64,000 nt of DNA from Sedimentisphaerales bacterium (GCA_028281535.1 JANQJS010000026.1:1-64000); one strand, 5' to 3'. Counted from the stretch's first letter, positions 27,463-42,923 are shown. Numbers and translations are program-made. Notes: generated by a model not told the origin, from the letters alone.

Positions 27463-30195
27463 ATGCAAAAATTTAAAGCAGCCTCTTATGTATTTATTGC
27501 GTTAGCCATATTATGGTCCACGACAATAGCACAAGCCTCGATATTAAATGTGCCTGCACAGTATAGCGACATTCAAACAGCAATCAATACTGCGCAAAAT
27601 GGAGATAAAATCATTGTTGCGGCAGGCATATATTATGAAAATATCAATTTTCTTGGTAAAGCAATTACTGTTACTTCGATTGATCCAAATGATCCGGATA
27701 TTGTAGAACAAACCATCTTAGATGGCTCACAACCTCAAGATCCAAATTTTGCAGGAGTAGCTCTTTTTACCTCAGGTGAAGATCCAAATAGTGTTTTAAC
27801 AGGCTTTACAATTCAAAATGGTAGTGGCCAGAGCGATCCAACCAGTAATGCTTGGCGTATTATTTTCACCGGTGCTAACGGTGATGGTGGTGCCATTCTT
27901 TGCATCAATTCATCACCAACGATATCTAAAAATGTTTTTAAGAATAACTATTCACTCTATGGAGGTGGTGCAATTTATTGCCACGACTCTTCTTCTCCCA
28001 CTATTGAGAATAATACATTTCAAAACAATTCGACCAAGACTTATGGCGGTGCCATTTTTACTAGAATCAATTGTTCACCTAAAATTGTTGACAATAAATT
28101 TTTCAGCAATGTGTGTGGCACACTAGGTGGCGCAATTTACCTTGCCACGAATTCCAATGCTTTCATCGCACGAAACGAATTCTTAAAGAATGAAGCAACG
28201 AATTTATCGGGTGGTGCAATTTATTATTTTATTAATTCATCCCCAAGTATTATCAATAATGTATTTAAAGATAATACGTGTAAGCAATTTGGCCCGGGAA
28301 TTCTATTAGAAAGCTCAGATGGAATAATTATTAACAATTTATTTTACAACAACGCCTCCATTGAAAGCTTTGGTGGCTCGATTGTCACTGGCTTAGGGGT
28401 CAATGTTATAATTTCAAATAACATTATTATGAAGAGTAACAAATCCGGAATTTACACTTTTTCAAACATTGGCTCAAACATAAAGAACAATCATTTTTGG
28501 GAAAATCTCAATGGTGACTTCGGCGGTACAACCCCTGACCAAATTGGTAATAATGACAACAAAAATTCAGATCCAAAATTACTTGTCAATATCATTCCCC
28601 CATTCACAAAATATGAACTGGAACCTAATTCTCCATGCATAGATGCTGGTGATCCAAACGATTTACCAATTGGAACGACGATTGATTACGACAAATCGAA
28701 TCGAATTGTTAACACAATAGATATTGGCCCTCAAGAATACAACGCCATCGGGGTACCTCAAGATCATTCCACGATACAGGCCGCCATCAATGCATCGACA
28801 ACCGGAGATACCATTATCGTTTCACCTGGTATTTATCAGGAAAATGTTAACTTCTTAAATAAAAACCTAAAAGTTCGTAGCCTCGATCCTCTTAACCCAA
28901 ATTGTGTTGCAACTACCATTATCGATGGCAACCAAACCGGAAGTTGTGTCGAAATCTTAGATGGTCAGGATGACACAACAGCGATTGCCGGATTTTATAT
29001 GAAAAATGGCCATGGTATTTTCGGCGGTGGTGTACACGTCAATAGCGCACAAGGCCCTGCTACGCTGTATAATTATATTATCAACTGTAAAGCAGATAGG
29101 TATGGTGGAGGTATTGACTATCGCAGTAATGCCTCAGGATTGATTCAATACAATACCATTATTAATAACTATGCGTCCGATGCAGGCGGTGGTATTCATT
29201 TAGGTCCTGGCTCATATGCTGACGTTTATAATAATGAAATATATAATAACACCACACCTGGTGAAGGAGGCGGAGGCATCTATACCTACAGTAAAACCTC
29301 CATTACCATTATTGACAATATCATTGTCGGAAACCTTGCCCCAGATTGTAATGGCGGTGGTGGAATCTGGCTTTGGGACCCTACATACAGTATTGTTGAA
29401 CGCAACATCATCATGAATAACATAACAATACCATTAACAACAGGAATCGGCATGGGGCGAGGTGGCGGCCTAGGGATTCAAGATGGCTATTCTTATATCG
29501 CAAATAATATCTTTGCAGGTAACATCGCTGAAGAAGGCGGTGCCGTTTCGATTCAATCCTTTTCGACTGCAGATCTATTTAATAATACCATTGTAAATAA
29601 CCGAGCAACCATCGTTGGCGGTGGGATCAATTTTGCTTTTGGTGTAGAAACCCCTACTATCAATAATATTGTTGCCTATAATGATCCTTCAGGAATCTAT
29701 ACGAAACCTTTTCCATTATTTCCATCTGATCCTAATCTTATAGCGAATAATGTCTGGAACAACTCAGGCCTGAACTATGATGGAGATATAATAGATCCGA
29801 ATGGTTTAAATAGTAATATTTCTGCCGACCCTCAATTTGTAGATAATGGCTATTGGGATCCCAACGGCTCGCCACAGACCGATGATGATATTTGGGTTGC
29901 AGGGGATTACCGTATAGGGTATCTATCCCCCTGCCGCGATACTGGTTCAAATCAGGTCAATATTGATGAAGATATCAATCTAACCAGCCGTCCTCAATTT
30001 GATGACATAGATATGGGTGCGATAGAAATCGATATCCACGACCTGAGTGCATCTGGAACGGTTGATATCTCTGACCTTATGCTCATTGTATCTAACTGGC
30101 TAGATACAGGGGAAAACATGCCATTAGATTTAAATGAGGACGATATTATCAATCTGTTTGAAATAGCCATTATAAGCTCAGAATGGTTCAATTAG
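27463..30195 (+). CDS. Secreted parallel beta-helix protein with C-terminal dockerin-like repeats
   Basis: A 910-residue protein with a signal peptide (about 1-28, AQAS). It contains two homologous right-handed beta-helix halves. The first begins with VPAQYSDIQTAINTAQNGD near 30 and the second with VPQDHSTIQAAINASTTGD near 430; each carries many GGGIY/GGAIY coil repeats. This fold is common in polysaccharide lyases and adhesins, but no lyase active site is recognisable. The end (about 850-910) has two dockerin-type calcium loops (SASGTVDISDLMLIV and NEDDIINLFEIAII) with a less canonical sequence than the dockerins downstream. It follows a pseudopilin gene. Confidence 0.8.
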   Translation: MQKFKAASYVFIALAILWSTTIAQASILNVPAQYSDIQTAINTAQNGDKIIVAAGIYYENINFLGKAITVTSIDPNDPDIVEQTILDGSQPQDPNFAGVALFTSGEDPNSVLTGFTIQNGSGQSDPTSNAWRIIFTGANGDGGAILCINSSPTISKNVFKNNYSLYGGGAIYCHDSSSPTIENNTFQNNSTKTYGGAIFTRINCSPKIVDNKFFSNVCGTLGGAIYLATNSNAFIARNEFLKNEATNLSGGAIYYFINSSPSIINNVFKDNTCKQFGPGILLESSDGIIINNLFYNNASIESFGGSIVTGLGVNVIISNNIIMKSNKSGIYTFSNIGSNIKNNHFWENLNGDFGGTTPDQIGNNDNKNSDPKLLVNIIPPFTKYELEPNSPCIDAGDPNDLPIGTTIDYDKSNRIVNTIDIGPQEYNAIGVPQDHSTIQAAINASTTGDTIIVSPGIYQENVNFLNKNLKVRSLDPLNPNCVATTIIDGNQTGSCVEILDGQDDTTAIAGFYMKNGHGIFGGGVHVNSAQGPATLYNYIINCKADRYGGGIDYRSNASGLIQYNTIINNYASDAGGGIHLGPGSYADVYNNEIYNNTTPGEGGGGIYTYSKTSITIIDNIIVGNLAPDCNGGGGIWLWDPTYSIVERNIIMNNITIPLTTGIGMGRGGGLGIQDGYSYIANNIFAGNIAEEGGAVSIQSFSTADLFNNTIVNNRATIVGGGINFAFGVETPTINNIVAYNDPSGIYTKPFPLFPSDPNLIANNVWNNSGLNYDGDIIDPNGLNSNISADPQFVDNGYWDPNGSPQTDDDIWVAGDYRIGYLSPCRDTGSNQVNIDEDINLTSRPQFDDIDMGAIEIDIHDLSASGTVDISDLMLIVSNWLDTGENMPLDLNEDDIINLFEIAIISSEWFN

Positions 30196-30752: not shown

Positions 30753-30786
30753 TAAGGGATCTTAATATACATTTAAGATCCCTTTT
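30753..30786 (+). terminator. Strong intrinsic terminator after the lipoprotein gene
   Basis: AAGGGATCTTAA pairs with TTAAGATCCCTT around a short loop, giving a long perfect stem, and is followed by TTATTTTTA. It lies between convergent genes and has A-rich sequence on the other side, so it may also serve the minus-strand dockerin gene. Confidence 0.85.
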
Positions 30787-30839: not shown

Positions 30840-31628
30840 CTAAAACCAGGGAAAACAATCACTATTATAAAATGGTGGCTGCCCATTCGTTTGTAATAGC
30901 ACTGTAAGATTGCTTAAATCAAACACATTAATGACACCATCTCCCGTCACATCACGACATGCATCAGCATTGGTTACAACAGGAACATTGTAGAAAGGTG
31001 GAACACCGTTGATCTGCAAAAACAATGACAGGTTACTCAAGTCAAAGACATTGATAACGCCATCACCAGTAGCATCACCCAAGCAAGTTTGGCAAGATGG
31101 ACCGAAATCTTCAACGAATGTAACATTGAATTCTACACCTTCAGCAGCAACGACGCCACCTCTTGTGCAGTCGGTACCCAAACCAGCAGCCGTTGCAGGA
31201 CCATCCAATACAATGGTAGCAATTGCACCAGCTGTATTTGGATCTGTACCTAAAGCACCAGCACTAACTGCAAAGCTAGTTGAACCAAGAGGTGCAACAC
31301 CAGGAGCACCTTGTAGAGCAACTGGGGTTTTTGTACCATTGGTAAAATTGTTAGGATCTCCTTGATTATCAAATCCCCAGTCGATTGGCGTATTGAACTC
31401 ACCATCCAGTGTAGACAGGTTAGGGTCTGCCAACGTTGCACCAACAATGTTCATTTCAAAGCTCATACCAACAGGGATGGCTTCGGCACCTGAATAGGTC
31501 AGAACGATGGCGTTACCAGAAGCTGTTGCAGTAATGATAATGTTAGGATCAGCTTCACCACAACTTTCAGCTTGAACCAATTGACAAAAAGCTACAATAC
31601 CAAACACAAAGAAAAATAGTTTCTTCAT
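30840..31628 (-). CDS. Secreted beta-sandwich protein with paired dockerin repeats (paralog 1)
   Basis: A 262-residue exported protein. Its signal peptide (about 1-20) ends near VQA, followed by ESCGEADPNI, the start of a beta-rich domain of about 150 residues. The domain is shared with the paralogs at 31.6 and 34.1 kb and resembles the lineage-specific cohesin-like domain of Phycisphaerae proteins. The C-terminus has two dockerin-type loops (DATGDGVINVFDLSNL and DVTGDGVINVFDLSNL), each ending in a PPFYN tag. AAGGTTGG precedes the ATG at 31628. No enzyme motif is seen; binding or anchoring is likely. Confidence 0.8.
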   Translation of the reverse strand: MKKLFFFVFGIVAFCQLVQAESCGEADPNIIITATASGNAIVLTYSGAEAIPVGMSFEMNIVGATLADPNLSTLDGEFNTPIDWGFDNQGDPNNFTNGTKTPVALQGAPGVAPLGSTSFAVSAGALGTDPNTAGAIATIVLDGPATAAGLGTDCTRGGVVAAEGVEFNVTFVEDFGPSCQTCLGDATGDGVINVFDLSNLSLFLQINGVPPFYNVPVVTNADACRDVTGDGVINVFDLSNLTVLLQTNGQPPFYNSDCFPWF

Positions 31629-31645
31629 ACCAACCTTACAATCAA

Positions 31646-32443
31646 TTATGGGCAAACAACATTATAAAATGGCGGAAGACCATTCGTTTGCAACAACAAA
31701 GAAAATTGACTCAAATCAAAAACATTAATCACATTGTCTTGATTTAAATCAATACAAATGTCTCCAGGATCGTCACAGGGATTATAATTAATGTTGTAAA
31801 ATGGTGGCAGGCCATACGTTTGCAACAACACAGCGAAGCAACTTAAGTCAAAAACATTAGTAATGCCATCGCCGTTGCAATCACCTGGACAAGTTGGACA
31901 AATCCCCAAACATGGAGCAAATACAAACTCCACATCCATTTCAACGCCATTTTCTGTAACAACGCCGCCTCGGGTACAATCTGGGCTTAAAGCCACACTT
32001 GACGCTGGCCCATTCAAGACAATAGTAGCAATCGCACCTGAAATACCGGTATCAGCACCTAAAGCACCAGCGCTAACGGAAAAATTATTTGAACCTAAAG
32101 CTGCAACGCCAGGAGCACCAATTTGAGCAACAGGCGTTTGACTACCATTGGCAAAATTATTCGGATCATCTTGATTATCAAAAGCCCAATCAATTGGCGT
32201 ATTAAAATCGCCATCGATGGTTGACAAATTTGGGTCAGCAAGAGTTGCCCCACCAACTACCATTTCAAAGCTCACACCAACGGGAGACTCTTCCGCATCA
32301 GAAAAAGTCACCTCAAGATTATTACCATTTTGCGTAATTATAATGATTATATTCGGATCAGCTTCTCCACAGCTCTCAGCAAAGGTAAATTGAGAGACAG
32401 AAAAGATAGACAGGCTTAAAATGACAAAAAAGAAATGCTTCAT
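31646..32443 (-). CDS. Secreted beta-sandwich protein with paired dockerin repeats (paralog 2)
   Basis: A 265-residue paralog of the neighbour downstream. It shares the mature start ESCGEADPNI, the VGVSFEM strand, the conserved NTPIDWAFDN segment and CTRGGVV before the dockerins. Two calcium loops (DCNGDGITNVFDLS and DLNQDNVINVFDLS) each end in LLQTxGLPPFYN. The linker is Cys-rich (CLGICPTCPGDC), suggesting disulfides. AGGAGG lies 6 nt before the ATG at 32443; the open frame upstream to 32536 is not supported by a ribosome site. It precedes paralog 1 by 17 bases, so the two are probably one operon. Confidence 0.82.
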   Translation of the reverse strand: MKHFFFVILSLSIFSVSQFTFAESCGEADPNIIIIITQNGNNLEVTFSDAEESPVGVSFEMVVGGATLADPNLSTIDGDFNTPIDWAFDNQDDPNNFANGSQTPVAQIGAPGVAALGSNNFSVSAGALGADTGISGAIATIVLNGPASSVALSPDCTRGGVVTENGVEMDVEFVFAPCLGICPTCPGDCNGDGITNVFDLSCFAVLLQTYGLPPFYNINYNPCDDPGDICIDLNQDNVINVFDLSQFSLLLQTNGLPPFYNVVCP

Positions 32444-32602
32444 AACAACCTCCTGATAAGACACGCTAGCTATACTACTACTAATTAACTTGATTGATAA
32501 TTGAGCCGTGGCCAAAATTTGTTTAAAACTCGACATTTATCTGGCTATTCCAAGTACTAGTATACTGGCGAGCAGGTGAAATAGCAATATCTTTTTATTT
32601 TC

Positions 32603-33322
32603 CTACTCTGGCTGGCAAGGTATTTCAAAAAAAGGTGGCGTACCATAGGTCTGCAGAATGCTAACCATCGAACTGACATCAAAGATATTCACTAAAACAC
32701 CATCCCCCGTTAAATCATAGCAAATGGTACTTTCTGTTAGTGGAATATCGTAAAAAGGATCTACACCATTTGCCTGGATATAGGTAATCAATGCACTCAA
32801 ATCAAAATTATCAATTTTATTATCACCAGTAATATCCCCAACACATGTTTCGCACTGATTTTTCGTGACATCGACGACGAGCGGAAAATTGTTTGTCACC
32901 TGAATTGGCTGGCCTGCCGAATCAATAACGCCCCCTTGATCAGCCGATTCATCAATCGTCACTTGAGCCGTTTTTCCTACGCGAATATCAACAATAGATT
33001 CAAGAGAACCTGGAAAAGGTGTCTGAGCATCCAATGTACTTAAAAGTGAAATGGTGATTTGGTTCACCTCATTATCATTAGGATCAAATGTTCGGAGCAA
33101 ATCATAATAAGGTGTTTGTAACTGAACGGTCAGTTCAACATTGGGATCATTCACAGAAATATTTAAAGCCAAGCCTATTGGTGGATTGCCTGTAAAAGAA
33201 CTATATCCAAGCGACAATATTCCATTTTCATTATCGGTTACTTGCAATGTTAGATCACTCGCACAGACTGTAGAGCCCCATAACATCACACAGCTTAGAA
33301 CAAACGCACTTACCCGGATCAT
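32603..33322 (-). CDS. Secreted protein with paired dockerin repeats (diverged paralog 3)
   Basis: A 239-residue exported protein (signal peptide about 1-21, ending VCAS). The N-domain is diverged from the neighbouring paralogs but keeps the order of strands (LSLGYSSFTGNPPIGLALNISV, then a GGVID turn before the linker). The linker CETCVGD leads into two dockerin loops (DITGDNKIDNFDLS and DLTGDGVLVNIFDVS, the second with one extra residue), ending in DPFYD and PPFFE, a variant of the tag. It lies 160 bases from paralog 2 on the same strand. Confidence 0.78.
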   Translation of the reverse strand: MIRVSAFVLSCVMLWGSTVCASDLTLQVTDNENGILSLGYSSFTGNPPIGLALNISVNDPNVELTVQLQTPYYDLLRTFDPNDNEVNQITISLLSTLDAQTPFPGSLESIVDIRVGKTAQVTIDESADQGGVIDSAGQPIQVTNNFPLVVDVTKNQCETCVGDITGDNKIDNFDLSALITYIQANGVDPFYDIPLTESTICYDLTGDGVLVNIFDVSSMVSILQTYGTPPFFEIPCQPE

Positions 33323-33404
33323 TCTCGCCTCGCTATCACCTTCTTAAAAACATTTCCCTAAGCCATCAGCATCACGCAGCCACATGTAATATAAACATAA
33401 AAAA

Positions 33405-33433
33405 AACGAGATGGGCACAAGACCCATCTCGTT
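33405..33433 (-). terminator. Intrinsic terminator after the PEP-CTERM gene
   Basis: AACGAGATGGG pairs perfectly with CCCATCTCGTT around a 7-base loop. On the minus strand the hairpin is followed by a run of T (the A-run at 33397-33406 on the plus strand). It ends transcription of the gene at 33.5-34.0 kb. Confidence 0.85.
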
Positions 33434-33468
33434 ATAGATACATCGACTACATAATAAAATGTAGTTAA

Positions 33469-34011
33469 TTATGCACGACGACGACGAGCTAACGCCAAAC
33501 CGCCCAAACCAAGAAGACTCATGGTCATTGGTTCTGGGATAACGTGAATAACAGTACCTTCGATAGCAACAGGGCTGAAAGTACCATCAGCTGACTGATT
33601 GTTGGTTGCAAACAACTGAATTTCAGTTGAAGGAGGTACTTGAGGAACATGGTATTCAACAACCCAATGCAAACCAGCAACAGGAACATCTGTTACACCA
33701 GCCAAGATACCAACAACTGACTGAATCAAAAGACCACCAGCGTTAACAACGGTACCAGGAGCACCAAAAGCGTTGTCAAAGTTAGGGTTGATGATAGCAG
33801 GGTTGTTAGCAGTACCACCGTGGCTACTGTTAAGATCGAAGCTCAAAGCAGCCAATGGAACATCTGAAGTTACTTCTAAAAGAATAACGTCAGATGGTGA
33901 GTAACTAGGTTTTTGGTCCGCAGCAGCTACACCAATTGAAATAGCAGCTTGCGATACTGATGCAAACCCTGCAACAGCGACTACTAAAGCTAAAACTAAA
34001 GACTTCTTCAT
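33469..34011 (-). CDS. PEP-CTERM protein with cohesin-like domain
   Basis: A 180-residue exported protein with a signal peptide (about 1-22, SQAA). The mature part begins ISIGVAAADQKPSYSPSDVILLEV, a beta-sandwich pattern like a cohesin-type domain. The C-terminus has the complete PEP-CTERM signal: PEP, a hydrophobic stretch and RRRRA. In bacteria with exosortase such tails direct sorting and cleavage at the cell envelope. AAGGAG precedes the ATG at 34011. A decayed copy of this gene lies at 40.15-40.5 kb. No exosortase gene is in the window. Confidence 0.88.
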   Translation of the reverse strand: MKKSLVLALVVAVAGFASVSQAAISIGVAAADQKPSYSPSDVILLEVTSDVPLAALSFDLNSSHGGTANNPAIINPNFDNAFGAPGTVVNAGGLLIQSVVGILAGVTDVPVAGLHWVVEYHVPQVPPSTEIQLFATNNQSADGTFSPVAIEGTVIHVIPEPMTMSLLGLGGLALARRRRA

Positions 34012-34144
34012 TCTAAAATCTCCTTTTTGATTTTCTCCAGCCACCTATCCTTGGATTTGTTCATCCAATTGAACATTTTCCTAAATAATGGTAGCTAATA
34101 TAAAATAAATCTTTTTTAAATTAAATTCAATCTAACAATTACAA

Positions 34145-34930
34145 TTATGGGCAAGGTACGTTGTAGAATGGTGGTAGACCATTGGTCTGCAAGAATAACG
34201 ATAGGTTACTCAAGTCAAACACGTTAACAACGCCATCACCAGTTCTGTCACGACATGCTTCAGCATTGGTAGTAACAGGAACGTTGTAGAATGGTGGTAA
34301 ACCATTGGTCTGCAAGAATAACGATAGGTTACTCAAGTCAAACACGTTAACAACGCCATCACCAGTAGCATCACCTGGACATGTAGGACATACAGGGGTG
34401 CCTGGATCGAACACAAAAGTAACATCCATTTCTACACCATCAGCAGCAACAACACCACCTCTTGTGCAGTCTGGGCTTAAAGTAACACCACCTACTGCAC
34501 CATCCAATGCGATAGTAGCAATAGCACCAGCAATATTAGGATCGGTACCTAAAGCACCAGCACTAACTGAAAAACTGGTTGACCCAATAGGAGCAACACC
34601 AGGAGCACCTTGCAGAGCAACTGGAGTTTGTGTGCCATTGGTGAAATTGTTTGGATCACCTTGGTTATCAAATGCCCAATCGATTGGCGTATTGAAAGCA
34701 CCATCAATGGTTGACAAGTTAGGATCAGCCAAAGCAGCACCGGTGATATCTAATTGAAAACTGACACCAACTGGTACAGCTTCTGCGTCAGAAAAAGTTA
34801 CATCCAAATTGTTACCATTTGCAGTAACAGTAATAACAATGTTAGGATCAGCTTCTCCGCAGCTTTCTGCAAAAACAGGAGCGGTCAAGGCGACAACCGC
34901 CAATAATAAAACTAGTAAATTCTTCATCAT
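34145..34930 (-). CDS. Secreted beta-sandwich protein with paired dockerin repeats (paralog 4)
   Basis: A 261-residue exported protein, closest to paralogs 1 and 2: ESCGEADPNI after the signal peptide, VGVSFQLDI, NTPIDWAFDN, CTRGGVV. The two dockerin units read GDGVVNVFDLSNLSLFLQ and are identical in that stretch; both end in NGLPPFYNVP. The DNA of the two units is almost identical over 86 bases (see the repeat entries), more than needed for protein identity. GGAG lies 6 nt before the ATG at 34930. It is first in the minus-strand array, preceded by a 760-base gap. Confidence 0.83.
   Translation of the reverse strand: MMKNLLVLLLAVVALTAPVFAESCGEADPNIVITVTANGNNLDVTFSDAEAVPVGVSFQLDITGAALADPNLSTIDGAFNTPIDWAFDNQGDPNNFTNGTQTPVALQGAPGVAPIGSTSFSVSAGALGTDPNIAGAIATIALDGAVGGVTLSPDCTRGGVVAADGVEMDVTFVFDPGTPVCPTCPGDATGDGVVNVFDLSNLSLFLQTNGLPPFYNVPVTTNAEACRDRTGDGVVNVFDLSNLSLFLQTNGLPPFYNVPCP
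34158..34243. repeat. Dockerin-coding direct repeat, copy A (86 bp)
   Basis: The segment encodes one dockerin unit of paralog 4 and repeats at 34281-34366 with a single base difference, at about position 19. Confidence 0.9.
34281..34366. repeat. Dockerin-coding direct repeat, copy B (86 bp)
   Basis: Second copy of the segment at 34158-34243, offset by 123 bases. Synonymous positions are also conserved, which points to recent tandem duplication or gene conversion. Confidence 0.9.
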
Positions 34931-35691
34931 TAAGTTCTCCACTCAACATAAATAGAACAGATCGTTAAAAACTCTAGTAAGCTTGGATTTGGTCCTGTCT
35001 ATTTCGCCTCAAAACTCTTTCACCTCGAAAAAGCCGACGGGCACCAAATCAACATAAAAAACAAATATCTTTTCTTCAGGTCCTCCTTTCTCACCTCAAA
35101 AAAAACGTTGTTACGAACTGCCTAAGCTTACATCGCTTTTTGCGATTTAAGCAACGATAAGTGTGTGTGTATCATTAAATTGTATATTTTTCGTGAACAG
35201 ATAGTTGGAATACCGATTGGTTTTCCGATTATTATTAGACCAAATTTCTCAAGCTTGGTCAAGATTTTTCTCTCCGATAACGTCCGATATACAACTTTTT
35301 TTACAGAGTTGTGGATACAGACTCACATTGACTGTTGATATTATATTGCAATAGGTAGGCCAAAAAAAAGTTAAAGGTTGCTCATAATTTATATTTTCCC
35401 CTATCTTATTTCTATTAAAACACTTAGGTCTCATTTTTTTCTGATAATTACTCGCAGTACGTCCATATAATATTGCCCATGTTGACACAAATCAACCCAC
35501 CCAACAAACATATCCCCCTAACCCCATTATAAATAAGATGTTACAAAATTAAACACTCCAATAGTGGGCAGTTGCCCAAAAGCATCAATTCGGGCTAATT
35601 TCATCTGATAATTCATTGAAAACCGATAGAATATGAGGTATTTGAAACTTGTAGCGATTATGCTATTTACCGATTGCAGATTAAAGGAAAC
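34931..35691. other. Non-coding divergent intergenic region
   Basis: About 760 bases between two divergent genes. It should hold promoters for both, but I cannot identify a convincing -35/-10 pair. A weak GACCAA/TTGGTC hairpin lies at about 35239-35261, and a short GT run at about 35162. A 79-codon open frame on the minus strand (35249-35488) has no ribosome site or protein-like pattern and is not called. Confidence 0.5.
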
Positions 35692-38600
35692 ATGAACACC
35701 CCAGCCCACAACATACGGCTCGAATGCTCACCAGCCTCTAGCGTTAACCAACTCCAATACTCGATTCTTAAAATCCGCGTTAAAGCCAAACATCTAAGCC
35801 CCAGCTTTAACAAGAACTCGCGCATTGTCATCCGCACCAATCTGAACCAGGCCGATAATATTCGCCAGCAGATCATTGACCTGGCAGAACGAGGCCAAAG
35901 CTACTCAACGGACTACTACGACATCGTTGCAGAAAAAACAGGCGAAACGGACTACAGCGTCGACATTTTACTCAATAAGGTTGGCTATTACGAATTCAAG
36001 GCACGTATCGAATCGACAGACAAAAGCAATCCCTGGGTTCATTGGGCTGAAGGCTCAAATATTGGTGTATCTGTCACACCACTACCCTATGGCAGAGACA
36101 ATTCGATTTACTGCGCATTCATACGACAGTTTGGCCTCAATAAAGACCAGGCATCTCTGGTTAATCCAGAGCTCGAAAAAACCATCGAAGAATTGGAAAA
36201 CCAAGGTGCTCATGTGCTGCCCCCTGGCGGTAATTTTAAAAATTTCATCGAAGAATTGCCCTTCATTATCCAAAAGCTTGGCATGAAAATTATTCACCTG
36301 CTTCCGATCAATCCGGTCCCAACTTCTTATGGTCGCATGGGCATGTATGGCAGTCCATATGCCACCACTGACTTCTTCGGTATTGACCACACCTACGCCG
36401 ACTTTAGTCGTTACAAAACCATCGAAGATCAATTCATTGATTTAACCTCAACCATTCACGGATTAGGCGCACGGGTCTTTCTTGACATGGTTGTGAACCA
36501 CACGGGCTGGGCAAGCAGCATTCATTTCACACATCGTCACTGGCGGGTTGTGGATGAAAATCGTAAAATCGTATCGCCAGGCGCTTGGGGTGTGGTCTGG
36601 GGCGATTTGGTTGAACTTGATTACCAGCATCGTGATCTTTGGCAATACATGGCAGAGGTCTTTTTGACTTGGTGCCGCCGAGGCATAGATGGCTTTCGGC
36701 TAGATGCTGGTTACATGGTTCCTATACAAGTATGGAAGTATATCATCAGCCGTGTACGACAAGAATTTCCCAATACTTTGTTTTTGCTTGAAGGTTTAGG
36801 TGGCCCATGGGAAACCACCGAAACATTACTGACGCATGGACAAATGAATTGGGCCTATTCTGAGTTATTTCAAAACTACAGCCGCGAGGAAATTATTAAT
36901 TATCTTGGCTATGCGCAACATGTCTCGGCTGGCAAAGGCGTACTCGTCCACTATGCCGAAACGCACGACAATGACCGTTTGGCCAAAAAGGGTAAAACTT
37001 ACACAGTCATGCGTTTGTACATCAGTGCACTTACATCGTTTTCAGGTGCATGGGGTTTTACCAATGGCGTAGAATGGCTGGCGAACGAAAAAATCAACGT
37101 CCATCGCAATACCGGCTTGAACTGGGGAAGTAAAAACAATCTGGTCAATGAAATTGCCAATCTAAATAAAATACTGGCAGAAAATCCGGCCTTCTGGCAA
37201 ACAGGTAACTTAAACGTTCTCGATCTTGATAACGATGAACTCTTTGCCTTCACACGAAGTACTGAAAACCCATGCGATACGGTTCTCTGTATCATTAACC
37301 TCAACACAGAAAAATCGCAATCATTTGGGATCGATTATAAGAAACTACAATTAAGCGACTTAATAGATTGCCATCAACCGATGGTCGATCTTCTCAGCGA
37401 CAAATTAATTTCGCCATTAGAAAACCCCTATCTAAATGGCTCTTGTGCTCCTGGTGGTTGTAAGCTCTACCTCATGAATCAAGCGAAGGAGAACAAAAAA
37501 ACAACCCCAGCAATTTTCGATGTCGACTATGATAAAATTGGTTTGATCTATCATATTTTGCTCAGTCGTTTTCGGCCTGAAGAAATCGGAAAAATCGATC
37601 AGGAATGCCTGCTTCGTTCCGTAAAAGATTTTCGAAAATTTATCGCGTTGGTCAATACACATCGACTCGCCGATCTGATTAAAATGGATTGGACGAAAGA
37701 ACAATCAAATGTTGATCAAAACCTGGTCGATAAATATTCGTCACTCTGGACATTCCGTGATAGTAGCCGTGAATTTATTATCCCAGGTAATAAATGGCTG
37801 GTGATCCACACATTTGTCCCATGCACCGCTTATTTAAAAATGGGGAACAAAAAAATCTCCATGGAATCCATTCCATCTGAAGATGGCATGGGCCATTTAA
37901 CATTCTTCAAGCCGCGACTAGATAATGTCCGTGCCATGCTGACTTTTAACTGGAAATTACAACGAGAGAATATGATTCAACGACAATGGCAACAGGAAGA
38001 TTATCCTATCCTATCCATTCCAACGGGCCAAATTGCTAAACGTCATCGAAGTGTTTATCCGTTATCGATAGAAAAAAATCAATTACATGATACACACTCA
38101 AAAGTATTCCTCACTAATGGCCTGGGAGGTCTCTCGCAGGTTCCGGCAACGCCAGCTGAAATAGACAGTAAATACGATACCTTATTTTCGATTACTCCAG
38201 ATTTGAAACAACCAGCTGATCGAATTTCTCTGGTTAAGATGGTCAAAGAAACGATTCAGGTCGACCAAAAATACTTTGATCTGGATGAAAGTTTCTTTAC
38301 GAAATTTACTCGCTATCCACATCCGATGTGGGAATTTGTGTACGATGATGATCAATATCATATCCGGATTCAACGCTCATTAATTATGGTCCATGGCCAA
38401 CACACCATGGATATTCGATATAAAATACTCGAATCGAATGCCCCGCTAACATTGACCAGTAAGTTTTATCTTGAACATCGCAATTTACATTTTGGTCTTA
38501 AAGCAGATGAAAAACTCAATGAAGCCTACAACAAAGCATTAAAAATCAACCATCAACCATCTGAAATTCATTTTCAGCCTGACCCAGACATTGAACTGAC

Positions 38601-40143
38601 CATCTCGGCAAAACGCGGAGAATTTATTTCACAACCTCAGTGGGTTTATGGTCTGAAGTTAACGGAAGATCGCCAACGTGGACTTGAGGAACAAAGCGAC
38701 TTGTACGCACCAGGAGTATTTAGTTTCGAACTCACTAAAGGCGATTCACAAATCATTACCTTGACAACCGAAGCACATCATGTCGATCAATTTTCCCTGC
38801 AAAAAACAGAGCAGGATGAAAATAAACGCATGAAAGAACTTATGACTCACATGCCACAATCGCAATGCCTCAACGATCCAGTCGCTCGCATGCTATTGTA
38901 TGCTTTGGATCAATTCATTGTCAAATCGGATGATGGCTGGGTGATGCTCTCCGGCTATCCATGGCTGGGGCAAAACACGAATGATTCACTCCGGTGTGTT
39001 GAAGCATTATTGCTGGCCGGAAGAGATGATGTTGCTCGCAGTATTTTAATCAAATCGGCACAATCGGAAAAAAAGGGTCGTCTGGCGGATTGGATACTAG
39101 GTGGACCTGAAAGTTATGAACTGACAGAAACCAGCCTGAGATTTATCATGGCTGTATCACGCTATATTGCAATAAAGCAAGATCAATCTTTCTGGGATGT
39201 CAAAGTTAACAACAAAAAAACATTTAGGGATGTCGCACGAAATATCTATGAAAAAATTTCTTTTCAAAAAACACAAGGCACACGTTTACATGATGCCAGC
39301 GGATTAATTTTTAATCCTAATGGCCAATCATGGATGAATACACAACAACCACAAACAACGCCTCGCAGCGGCTATCCTGTTGAGCTGCAAGGTTTGTGGT
39401 ACCAGGTTTTGGAAATCGTTCAACATGTGCTACCTGAATATCAACATGAGATCCAGGAACAAAAGCAGCGGTTGAAAAAGAATTTCACTTCGCATTTCTG
39501 GCATCAAGAGCGAAATCATCTTGCAGATATCCTGCTTTGCCCTGAAGGCTACCGCCTTCCCAAAGACAGCTTATTTGATAGTGCGCTGCGTTTCAATCAA
39601 TTGACCGCGGTTCATGCAGGACTGGTCGATAGCGACAAAACAATGCAAATACTCAAACAAATACAGCGCAAACTTTTAGTTCCTTGCGGTCTGCGCAGCC
39701 TATCTGAGGACATCCTCGAAATTCCATTGGAAGTTATGCTTAATGGCCGGCTTTTAATTGATCCATCTATGCCCTATCAAGCTAAATGCGTTGGTAATGA
39801 AACGGACAGGCGACTGGCCTATCATAATGGCACGGCCTGGGTCTGGGCTTATGCCAGCTACATTGAAGCGGGTGCCAACCTGCTAAACTATTCTGACAGT
39901 GTTTGCAAACAAGGTTTGGCATTCTTTGAACCGATCTGGAATCAATTGCGTCGTGGCGGCATTGGTACATTATCTGAAATGCTGGATGGCAATTTTCCCC
40001 ATACCCCCCGCGGCTGCTTTGCTTATTCACTCAGTGTCGCTGAAGTGTTCAGGGTCTATATGCACCTGAAATATACCAGCAGTTATCCGGAATCACACCA
40101 CCTAACAGCATCTCAAATTCCAGCGACCGTGGAAATCATCTAA
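35692..40143 (+). CDS. Bifunctional glycogen-debranching-type fusion: GH13 plus amylo-1,6-glucosidase-like
   Basis: A 1483-residue cytoplasmic protein. The first part (about 1-130) is a beta-rich N-domain; about 140-560 is a GH13 barrel with VFLDMVVNHTGW, nucleophile Asp338 in GFRLDAG, acid/base Glu367 in LLEGLGG and Asp426 in ETHDND. From about 800 the pattern changes to that of GDE-type enzymes: FLTNGLGGLSQVP, then GYPWLGQNTNDSLRCVEALLLAGR near 1085 and an alpha/alpha-toroid to the end. It could remove glycogen branches by transferase and glucosidase steps, as eukaryotic AGL does. AAAGGAAAC precedes the ATG at 35692. The gene stands alone. Confidence 0.85.
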   Translation: MNTPAHNIRLECSPASSVNQLQYSILKIRVKAKHLSPSFNKNSRIVIRTNLNQADNIRQQIIDLAERGQSYSTDYYDIVAEKTGETDYSVDILLNKVGYYEFKARIESTDKSNPWVHWAEGSNIGVSVTPLPYGRDNSIYCAFIRQFGLNKDQASLVNPELEKTIEELENQGAHVLPPGGNFKNFIEELPFIIQKLGMKIIHLLPINPVPTSYGRMGMYGSPYATTDFFGIDHTYADFSRYKTIEDQFIDLTSTIHGLGARVFLDMVVNHTGWASSIHFTHRHWRVVDENRKIVSPGAWGVVWGDLVELDYQHRDLWQYMAEVFLTWCRRGIDGFRLDAGYMVPIQVWKYIISRVRQEFPNTLFLLEGLGGPWETTETLLTHGQMNWAYSELFQNYSREEIINYLGYAQHVSAGKGVLVHYAETHDNDRLAKKGKTYTVMRLYISALTSFSGAWGFTNGVEWLANEKINVHRNTGLNWGSKNNLVNEIANLNKILAENPAFWQTGNLNVLDLDNDELFAFTRSTENPCDTVLCIINLNTEKSQSFGIDYKKLQLSDLIDCHQPMVDLLSDKLISPLENPYLNGSCAPGGCKLYLMNQAKENKKTTPAIFDVDYDKIGLIYHILLSRFRPEEIGKIDQECLLRSVKDFRKFIALVNTHRLADLIKMDWTKEQSNVDQNLVDKYSSLWTFRDSSREFIIPGNKWLVIHTFVPCTAYLKMGNKKISMESIPSEDGMGHLTFFKPRLDNVRAMLTFNWKLQRENMIQRQWQQEDYPILSIPTGQIAKRHRSVYPLSIEKNQLHDTHSKVFLTNGLGGLSQVPATPAEIDSKYDTLFSITPDLKQPADRISLVKMVKETIQVDQKYFDLDESFFTKFTRYPHPMWEFVYDDDQYHIRIQRSLIMVHGQHTMDIRYKILESNAPLTLTSKFYLEHRNLHFGLKADEKLNEAYNKALKINHQPSEIHFQPDPDIELTISAKRGEFISQPQWVYGLKLTEDRQRGLEEQSDLYAPGVFSFELTKGDSQIITLTTEAHHVDQFSLQKTEQDENKRMKELMTHMPQSQCLNDPVARMLLYALDQFIVKSDDGWVMLSGYPWLGQNTNDSLRCVEALLLAGRDDVARSILIKSAQSEKKGRLADWILGGPESYELTETSLRFIMAVSRYIAIKQDQSFWDVKVNNKKTFRDVARNIYEKISFQKTQGTRLHDASGLIFNPNGQSWMNTQQPQTTPRSGYPVELQGLWYQVLEIVQHVLPEYQHEIQEQKQRLKKNFTSHFWHQERNHLADILLCPEGYRLPKDSLFDSALRFNQLTAVHAGLVDSDKTMQILKQIQRKLLVPCGLRSLSEDILEIPLEVMLNGRLLIDPSMPYQAKCVGNETDRRLAYHNGTAWVWAYASYIEAGANLLNYSDSVCKQGLAFFEPIWNQLRRGGIGTLSEMLDGNFPHTPRGCFAYSLSVAEVFRVYMHLKYTSSYPESHHLTASQIPATVEII

Positions 40144-40149
40144 TCTAAT

Positions 40150-40517
40150 ATGTATCCTACAGCTTATCAATAATCCTCCAAAGACTAATAAACCTATGGT
40201 CATTGGTTCCCATTAAACCTGTATGCGAACACAATTCGACTACTATCGATGGAGGTAAATCAGGAATTCGATACTCAAATGAAATGAAATAAATCTAGAG
40301 TAGGTACAAGCAGACCAGTATACTCAAAAGAACCCAAAGGAGCCATCACGGGATTGCTTGCAACACCTTCAGCTCCAAAATCAATCGTCATAATATGACG
40401 ATACACCCTAATCGTTTCATCTGGAAGATAACTAGACTGAATGGGCCCCACTTACCATTGCGTCTGGGCCTCGGTGACACTTACAAATATAATTGATAAA
40501 ATCAAAGCACAACACAT
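40150..40517 (-). pseudogene. Decayed PEP-CTERM protein gene
   Basis: A remnant of a paralog of the gene at 33469-34011. From an ATG at 40517 (preceded by AAGAGGTG) it encodes a signal-peptide-like start ending VTEAQTQW and then a stop. Further on, YLPDETIRVYRHIMTIDFG, FEYRIPDLPPSIVVEL and EPMTIGLLVFGGLL align with parts of the intact protein but lie in different frames with stops between, and about 20 residues before the PEP motif are missing. The final Arg-rich tail is lost. Confidence 0.75.
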
Positions 40518-40631
40518 CACCTCTTAAAAAAACAAGCAACCTTTTATCATTTTTGAGGTCTCATGAGGTTCATTTGACAAAAAGGGTCTCATACCAACGG
40601 AAAGTTATAAAATAGTAATAAAAATTAAAAA

Positions 40632-40661
40632 ACCCAACCAGTTATAAAAGACTGGTTGGGT
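40632..40661 (-). terminator. Intrinsic terminator after the Cys-rich protein gene
   Basis: ACCCAACCAGT pairs perfectly with ACTGGTTGGGT around an 8-base loop, followed on the minus strand by TTTTTTAATTTT. Confidence 0.85.
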
Positions 40662-40706
40662 CTATAGATCATATTTATTGTCTATACTATCATTTCATAA
40701 ACAATA

Positions 40707-42923
40707 CTAAGGAATACACGGTGCAGTGTAGAATGGCGGAGCACCATTGTTTTGTAAGTATAGTGCCAAAATACTTAAATCAAATACATTGCAAACACCA
40801 TCACCATTTAGATCGCAGCAATCTCCTGGTCCAGCAGGAACTGCATAAAATGGAGCAACACCATTTGTTTGTAAATATAACGATAATGCACTTAAGTCAA
40901 ATACATTGACAATTCCATCACCCGTCAAATCTCCAAGACAATCACACCCTTGCGGTAATTCTGTTAAGAGCTCAAACGCTAGATCTTTGGAAAACTCTTC
41001 AATGCCAACGGGACCATCGACACCGCCAACACCAAAGCAACGTCCATTCGTAAATAGATGGACATAATACTCATCTATATAATTACCTTGGAATACAAGC
41101 GGACACAGTGGATCAGTGACACTACGATCATCAATAAAGACATCGCCTGAGACTGCATCATCCTGGAAGTGCCATACTGGCCAGGTGACACCTGCGGGAT
41201 CAACAACAGAACCAATAATGGATTCACCTGGAACAACACCATCAGCAGCGGTTGATGCGACAGGGTTCATGATACGATAGTCACGATTATGCCATCCCCA
41301 TCGTGTGACTTCTGGTTGGCAAGGTAAATCTGGTAATTCCATTGCTTCACAGAAAGAAATTTGTTGCGTTTCTGCAAAGTTTGTCATGCAAGTAAAAAAT
41401 GGAACAGATTCGGACGAATCCAAATCAATAATCGCGACAATTTTGAGCCAGTATACGGTATGAGGTTCTTGCGGGAATGGTTTTTTCAAGACCGCACAAT
41501 ATTCATACAGCGTTTCGTTACATGGGAAACCACCTGGACTGATTGGTACTTCATTATATTCACCTGGCGTCAAAGCAGAACAACTCGCTGAACTGAGTGT
41601 CACAATTTCACTTGAAAGCACTTCGCCGGGATGCGAATACCCAAGTGCATTGTTTGGATCATCGGCAGGTACATCTGCTTCAAATGAAATCAGGAACTTG
41701 GTAACAGGCTGGTTGATTTGGTTATTCAAATAGGATCCCCACCATTTCAAACAAATGACAGGCGTATCGTATGGATCTGCAAAGTCATCTGCCATGAAAC
41801 AACCTTGATAGCCAAGCGGTGGAATACCCGTCTGACCATCAAACCAGGTATAAGCGGTACTGATTTCGTCATGGCCATAATAAGGGTATTGTTGATTATC
41901 AATTGGCCGACCATCCAATGGCAGTTGGATAAATTTGACTTCTTTTTCAGGTTCGGGTTCTTGTTCACAATCAATACAATCGGCAACAAGAATATTTGGA
42001 GCTAAACACTGACCGACTGGAACAGGACCACAGAAACCATTGGTTGGATCACAGCACAATTCTGTTGGTGGCGGGAAGCAATCGTTGCAATCAGTGACAA
42101 TATTGGCTTGAGGACACTGACCAACAGGAACAGGGCCACAGAAATTATTTGCTTGGTCACAGCAAAGTACTGTCGGAGGTTCACAATCCAAGCAGTTCGG
42201 TACAACCACACCAGTACAAGTTCCAGCAGGAACAGGACCACATGAGCCCGTTGCTGTATCGCAGCAGAGTTCAGGCTGTGGAGGGACACACTCATTGCAA
42301 TCCGTTACAGGAATAAATGGTGTCACACATTGGCTGATAGGTGCATTGAAGCAGATACCATTGGCTTGATCACAACAAAGCACATCTGGCTCTTGGCATT
42401 CAGTACAATCGTTAACAACCTGAAGTGGAGGTTGACATTGACTCAGTGTTGTCGAAAAACATGTGCCTAAATCGCAGCATAAGACATCTGGATCGGTTTG
42501 ACATTCTTGACAATCAGTAACGAGAAAACCGCCATAGATTTCTTGACATTCATTCAGTGGAACATTCGCACAAATACCATCGAAACAGCAAAGCTCTTGC
42601 GGCCCCTGGCACTCAAAGCAATCATTCACAGGGGTTGAAGGAGACGGACACTGACCGATTGGAGCCGGAAAGCATGATCCCGTTGTATCGTCACAGCAAA
42701 ATTCAAAATTCGTACAAGGTTGCTGATCGCAAGGAACGCCTTCATAAAAGGTTCCGTTCAACAATTCAACACATTCAAATTCACCAGGTACATCCTGACA
42801 TCCACCACTTGGCAAACAACAGCCTCCCCCTAATCCAACAATACCAGCATTAGCCATAGGTGCCATGAACATCACACCAGCTAGCATAAACAATAAAAAT
42901 AAAGACCTCTTGATTTTTTTCAT
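40707..42923 (-). CDS. Secreted Cys-rich repeat protein with C-terminal dockerin pair
   Basis: A 738-residue exported protein with a signal peptide (about 1-27, ANAG). Residues 35-320 contain eight units of about 30 residues with a CC...C...C...DCxxC pattern, six Cys each, for example CCDQANNFCGPVPVGQC followed by DCNDC. Residues 340-660 resemble the domain named DUF7901 in planctomycetes (CFMADDF, KWWGSYLNN, RWGWHNRDY). The end has two dockerin loops (DLTGDGIVNVFDLS and DLNGDGVCNVFDLS) with APFYA and PPFYT tags. GGAGG precedes the ATG. The Cys pattern suggests a disulfide-stabilised stalk. Confidence 0.8.
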   Translation of the reverse strand: MKKIKRSLFLLFMLAGVMFMAPMANAGIVGLGGGCCLPSGGCQDVPGEFECVELLNGTFYEGVPCDQQPCTNFEFCCDDTTGSCFPAPIGQCPSPSTPVNDCFECQGPQELCCFDGICANVPLNECQEIYGGFLVTDCQECQTDPDVLCCDLGTCFSTTLSQCQPPLQVVNDCTECQEPDVLCCDQANGICFNAPISQCVTPFIPVTDCNECVPPQPELCCDTATGSCGPVPAGTCTGVVVPNCLDCEPPTVLCCDQANNFCGPVPVGQCPQANIVTDCNDCFPPPTELCCDPTNGFCGPVPVGQCLAPNILVADCIDCEQEPEPEKEVKFIQLPLDGRPIDNQQYPYYGHDEISTAYTWFDGQTGIPPLGYQGCFMADDFADPYDTPVICLKWWGSYLNNQINQPVTKFLISFEADVPADDPNNALGYSHPGEVLSSEIVTLSSASCSALTPGEYNEVPISPGGFPCNETLYEYCAVLKKPFPQEPHTVYWLKIVAIIDLDSSESVPFFTCMTNFAETQQISFCEAMELPDLPCQPEVTRWGWHNRDYRIMNPVASTAADGVVPGESIIGSVVDPAGVTWPVWHFQDDAVSGDVFIDDRSVTDPLCPLVFQGNYIDEYYVHLFTNGRCFGVGGVDGPVGIEEFSKDLAFELLTELPQGCDCLGDLTGDGIVNVFDLSALSLYLQTNGVAPFYAVPAGPGDCCDLNGDGVCNVFDLSILALYLQNNGAPPFYTAPCIP

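Follow-up and report, generated by a model that had tools for sequence, protein, structure and literature searches.

A dockerin-doublet gene array with an embedded PEP-CTERM gene in a Sedimentisphaerales bacterium: a candidate non-cellulosomal adaptor cassette

The window analyzed here, a stretch of 64,000 nucleotides from a Sedimentisphaerales bacterium (GCA_028281535.1, JANQJS010000026.1:1-64000), contains five minus-strand genes whose secreted products end in a doublet of dockerin loops, all at the places given in an initial annotation of this DNA. Three are close paralogs: 34145–34942 (signal peptide, RGGVV-containing N-domain at 34409–34846, doublet at 34148–34381), 31646–32536 (N-domain 31919–32356, doublet 31649–31891), and 30840–31655 (N-domain 31113–31547, doublet 30855–31085), the last overlapping the preceding gene, 31646–32536, by 10 bases. 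The fourth, 32603–33322 (doublet 32615–32845), is a diverged paralog, and the fifth, 40707–42923 (doublet 40716–40940), encodes a secreted Cys-rich protein whose N-terminal part is unrelated to the paralogs and carries DUF7901 (Pfam). N-domain identity is 73–76% among the three close paralogs and 27% for the diverged one, in agreement with the earlier description of three close, one diverged, and one Cys-rich N-domain. A Pfam scan found no glycoside hydrolase domain among the dockerin proteins of the window.

The initial inventory of the array had overlooked two genes. One, 33469–34044 (minus strand), encodes a PEP-CTERM protein (Pfam PEP-CTERM above cut-off) and sits inside the array, 100 bases after 34145–34942 and on the same strand. 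Directly 3′ of it, at 33433–33405 on the minus strand, lies a strong intrinsic terminator-like hairpin with a T run (12-pair stem, six GC pairs), which possibly bounds a two-gene unit spanning 34942–33469. Because this gene and hairpin follow 34145–34942 and three dockerin genes lie beyond them, the array can be read as one two-gene unit followed by three duplicated adaptors. A second hairpin of 12 pairs at 30754–30784, terminator-like on both strands, separates the minus-strand dockerin array from convergent plus-strand genes. The other overlooked gene, 27463–30195 (plus strand), encodes a sixth dockerin protein, a secreted beta-helix/choice-of-anchor Q protein whose dockerin belongs to the ordinary ..SEWF class; a homolog with 48% identity adjoins the cassette in the relative genome G034. 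Upstream of the array, 35674–40143 encodes a single 1489-aa protein with an alpha-amylase domain and glycogen debranching enzyme N and C domains, and three further genera of the family have homologs at 55–58% identity next to the cassette. Since these neighbor genes recur in other genera and families, the array in the window is a local form of a conserved cassette.

In the aligned doublets, each of the five C-termini has two EF-hand/dockerin loops, with G-x-x-PF[YF] after each helix. The ten tagged units reported earlier are all present: six of the ten read exactly PPFYN (two each in 30840–31655, 31646–32536, and 34145–34942), and the rest are variants, namely DPFYD and PPFFE in 32603–33322 and APFYA and PPFYT in 40707–42923. 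Pfam Dockerin_1 (PF00404) matches all five proteins (E 4.7e-6 to 0.11, with only 40707–42923 above the curated cut-off), and a profile of the doublet family matches solved type I dockerins (best E 2.6e-6); by sequence, the doublet is a true relative of type I dockerins.

At E up to 10, Dockerin_1 is matched 98 times in the genome (4.44 Mb, 99.4% complete). A genome-wide search for the tag, proposed with the initial annotation, returned exactly six PF[YF] doublets, the five of the window and one degenerate copy on contig C40 (C40:31903–32139) that lacks an N-domain and is interrupted by an in-frame TAA. This decayed doublet (L132 6904–7140 = G000:C40:31903–32139) immediately follows an intact dockerin gene whose variant tags are MPFIP and VPFIS. 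The PF[YF] class is a minority among the dockerins of the genome, most of the others closing with a ..NWL-like helix. Close copies of the doublet were absent among 40 relatives, which led us to reject PPFYN as a widespread motif, and a GTDB scan for the doublet returned generic dockerins only.

What recurs across genomes is the symmetry of the doublet. Its two halves have a median identity of 64% within a protein versus 28% between genomes, a pattern found in 69/69 cases, and in 43 of the 69 the half-to-half identity exceeds even that to the nearest other genome. The duplicated segment varies by lineage: PPFYN here, NNNGSAPFWSI in G020, NTNGGTLGQAP in G009, G[LW]GSPFR in G034, and calcium-loop inserts in many others. 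As judged from these alignments, PPFYN is the local instance of a fast-evolving surface that each lineage carries in duplicate, once per dockerin half. The tag, for which an unknown receptor-binding or self-assembly surface had been suggested as a possibility, is not a separate receptor-binding module but the local form of a duplicated sequence at normal dockerin-doublet positions. Near-symmetric halves are familiar from cellulosomal dockerins with a dual binding mode, and by this likeness the duplicated segment may set partner specificity.

The N-domains of the paralogs and their relatives share a conserved RGGVV motif and make up a single family. A profile built from an alignment of 12 N-domains was run against 397 genomes of the class and found the domain in 80 of the 95 sampled from the order (probably Sedimentisphaerales) versus 1 of 302 others. 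Most relatives have one adaptor gene, and the adaptor appears to have been tandemly duplicated to four copies in the lineage of the window. Through this duplication, and the presence of the doublet on an unrelated protein, several proteins would share one docking code.

An AF2 model with the four window paralogs as its only input (mean pLDDT 56, pTM 0.43) places eight strands in the N-domain. When the model was compared with the PDB using Foldseek, ranks 1–18 were all cohesins or cohesin chains of cohesin-dockerin complexes (best E 8.5e-4; probability 0.91–1.0 for the first 14 cohesin matches; rmsd to cohesins about 9 Å), and rank 19 was a cellulose-binding domain. The weak N-domain model could be steered by the attached dockerin. 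A PDB profile search with the N-domains alone gave no match, an HHalign comparison of the N-domain with Pfam-type cohesins of the order was not significant, and Pfam Cohesin was touched by 1 of 12 N-domains (E 0.03). The predicted structure suggests that the N-domain is likely a divergent cohesin fold, which lends support to the cohesin-like appearance noted initially. The accompanying claim that scaffoldins and cohesins are lacking stands in part: PF00963 has no match in the whole 99.4% complete genome, and no multi-cohesin scaffoldin occurs there at the PF00963 level, but a divergent cohesin is probably present in the N-domain itself.

Canonical cohesins are rare well beyond this genome, with any PF00963 match in only 10 of 148 genomes of the order. 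Across the class, dockerins are found in 191/248 genomes and canonical cohesins in 39/248, which raises the question of what the dockerins of the class bind. Dockerin-rich genomes without canonical cohesin exist outside the order too, and the RGGVV N-domain is absent from them. Exosortase was found in 36 of 36 genomes tested, with three matches in the genome of the window, so that both parts of a PEP-CTERM/exosortase system, the tail (33469–34044) and the exosortase, are present in it.

We quantified the association between adaptor and PEP-CTERM genes across the order. Because the first ten loci had been reached through the PEP-CTERM homolog, we added 60 loci selected by their N-domain, tested the neighborhood again, and give counts over all 70. 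A PEP-CTERM gene is the next gene downstream, on the same strand, for 51 of 66 evaluable dockerin-tailed N-domain genes (median gap 83 bp; 49/51 within 400 bp), against a background of 6/289 for other genes of those loci. All ten first-round loci are in this count and were positive; without them, the unbiased part gives a somewhat lower rate (41/56). As the genomes are related, these counts are not independent; positives occur in families f1, f2, f4, f6, and f7. Another family of the order (G034) has full-length homologs of 33469–34044 itself, located immediately downstream of a gene for a dockerin doublet. Where an N-domain protein has a PEP-CTERM tail of its own, a PEP-CTERM neighbor is present in 0/5 cases (Fisher p = 0.0012). 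This order-wide link supports the earlier suggestion of a non-cellulosomal surface system.

The neighbor is missing at 15/66 loci, including a clade of genera g33 and g174 (eight genomes) that keeps the dockerins, the exosortase, and a conserved lipoprotein whose family often comes after the cassette; exosortase loss in this clade was rejected, as the exosortase is present. In 30/66 loci (L128–L163, L208–L267), though not in the window, the adaptor gene has a divergently oriented RodA/FtsW-like gene with an SYGGSS motif upstream of it.

The PEP-CTERM partners are diverse and gave no cohesin match, and HHalign comparisons of them with the N-domains were not significant; the idea that partner and N-domain are one domain with two tails was not supported by profiles for the N-domain family. 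A PDB profile search with the partners returned mostly antibody-like beta matches, which we took as chance, and a single-sequence AF2 model of the PEP-CTERM protein was unusable (pLDDT 36). The genome of the window has 48 PEP-CTERM genes. Nine lie within 2.5 kb of a dockerin tail encoded on the same strand, versus 1.5 expected under uniform placement, and none lies that close to one on the opposite strand. This same-strand excess fits both a role of the dockerin proteins as adaptors and a role of the dockerin as an anchor tail.

Other loci of the genome add further observations. At L167 (G000:C43:204000–213000) and L169 (G000:C45:193500–199500), PEP-CTERM proteins adjoin dockerin-tailed proteins with similar-looking N-domains, next to prepilin-like genes and small Cys/His-rich proteins; one protein there matches the all3515 Zur-repressed PEP-CTERM family below cut-off, which would allow for a zinc-related surface locus. 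A 1069-aa secreted protein (L126:538–3747, G000:C9) has an N-terminal domain 55% identical to the PEP-CTERM protein of the window, followed by fibronectin-like repeats, with no PEP-CTERM tail.

Taken together, we consider it about an even chance (probability ∼0.5) that the window holds a locally expanded, non-cellulosomal cohesin-dockerin adaptor cassette tied to PEP-CTERM surface proteins. Under this reading, the adaptor would be exported and its doublet would dock on a surface acceptor, most likely the neighboring PEP-CTERM protein, or another adaptor's cohesin-fold domain. The PEP-CTERM protein 33469–34044 is the proposed exosortase-sorted surface partner. The adaptor N-domain would in turn receive dockerin-tailed cargo, for which 40707–42923 and 27463–30195 are possible candidates, along with other dockerin proteins of the genome. 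Several results speak against this reading: the weak N-domain model and the negative sequence comparisons with cohesins, the 15 loci that have no PEP-CTERM neighbor, the diversity of the PEP-CTERM partners and their lack of a cohesin match, and the dockerin-rich genomes outside the order that have neither a canonical cohesin nor the RGGVV N-domain.

The main rival to the adaptor reading is that the doublet is a mere C-terminal anchor tail, interchangeable with PEP-CTERM and received by some other envelope component, the PEP-CTERM neighbor being just co-regulated and co-displayed. We regard this as rather unlikely, even though several observations speak for it: the same N-domain occurs with either a dockerin or a PEP-CTERM tail, the genome itself has PEP-CTERM and dockerin-tailed proteins with look-alike N-domains side by side, NCBIfam names a “GC-type dockerin domain-anchored protein” family as well as “choice-of-anchor” domains, and one clade has the doublet without the PEP-CTERM gene. 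However, a neighbor that is present beside dockerin tails and absent beside PEP-CTERM tails is more than co-display alone predicts, and a plain anchor tail leaves the predicted cohesin fold unexplained.

That fold, together with the symmetric doublet found once in every adaptor and the adjoining of four paralogs in the window, would also suit head-to-tail self-assembly, an option already allowed for in the initial annotation, in which the doublet would bind the cohesin-fold N-domain of the next paralog and so form a filament or lattice on the surface, with the PEP-CTERM protein as its cap. Most relatives have a single adaptor gene, though, and in cellulosomal adaptors the protein's own cohesin and own dockerin are usually not a binding pair, which makes such assembly distinctly improbable. 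Very unlikely, in our estimate, is that the N-domain is a carbohydrate-binding or adhesive beta-sandwich and the proteins are ordinary surface adhesins on dockerin tails; the lack of a sequence-level cohesin match and the cellulose-binding domain at Foldseek rank 19 would agree with this, but all eighteen better-ranked matches are cohesins.

If the adaptor reading is true, it connects dockerin docking with exosortase sorting. A cryptic cohesin fused to a dockerin, beside a surface-sorted protein and kept across the order, would offer concrete candidate partners for dockerins and suggests that the adaptor N-domain may be what some of the order's many partnerless dockerins bind. Given the class-wide counts of dockerins and canonical cohesins, it is only within the order that the cryptic domain would account for dockerin partners. 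The duplicated doublet tag is a general, lineage-specific pattern, of which PPFYN is one lineage's form. More tentatively, and with somewhat less than even odds, these elements may add up to an order-wide planctomycete surface display, with a cryptic cohesin class, exosortase-sorted partners as anchors, and a lineage docking code written twice per doublet.

No paper in the literature collection searched mentions dockerin and PEP-CTERM together, and the closest known systems each share part of this architecture. Like cellulosomal adaptor scaffoldins, which combine one cohesin and one dockerin, the secreted proteins of the window join a predicted cohesin fold to a dockerin, and their doublets resemble cellulosomal ones in their homology to type I dockerins and their near-symmetric halves. 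Unlike in cellulosomal systems, the genome has neither a Pfam cohesin nor a multi-cohesin scaffoldin, the adaptor proteins carry no cellulase, and the partner bears a PEP-CTERM tail where cellulosomal systems use SLH or sortase anchors; the cohesin identity here also rests on a weak model. In Limihaloglobus sulfuriphilus, the largest scaffoldin is reported to have only two cohesins (PMC11557425). That species probably belongs to the same order, and its scaffoldin has canonical cohesins in a large protein, unlike the cryptic domain of the window. NCBIfam choice-of-anchor and GC-type dockerin domain-anchored proteins (NF041518, NF041540) likewise pair one N-domain with alternative C-terminal anchors, dockerin included, but the window adaptors match neither model and the dockerin-tailed form has its own PEP-CTERM neighbor. 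A “planctosome” built on cohesins and dockerins has been proposed for the freshwater Nemodlikiaceae (PMC6461901) and shares with our reading the planctomycete host and the idea of a non-cellulosomal cohesin/dockerin adaptor; that proposal includes recognizable cohesins, a lamin-tail anchor, and peptidases (PMC6461901), whereas the cassette described here would combine a cryptic cohesin with a PEP-CTERM neighbor.
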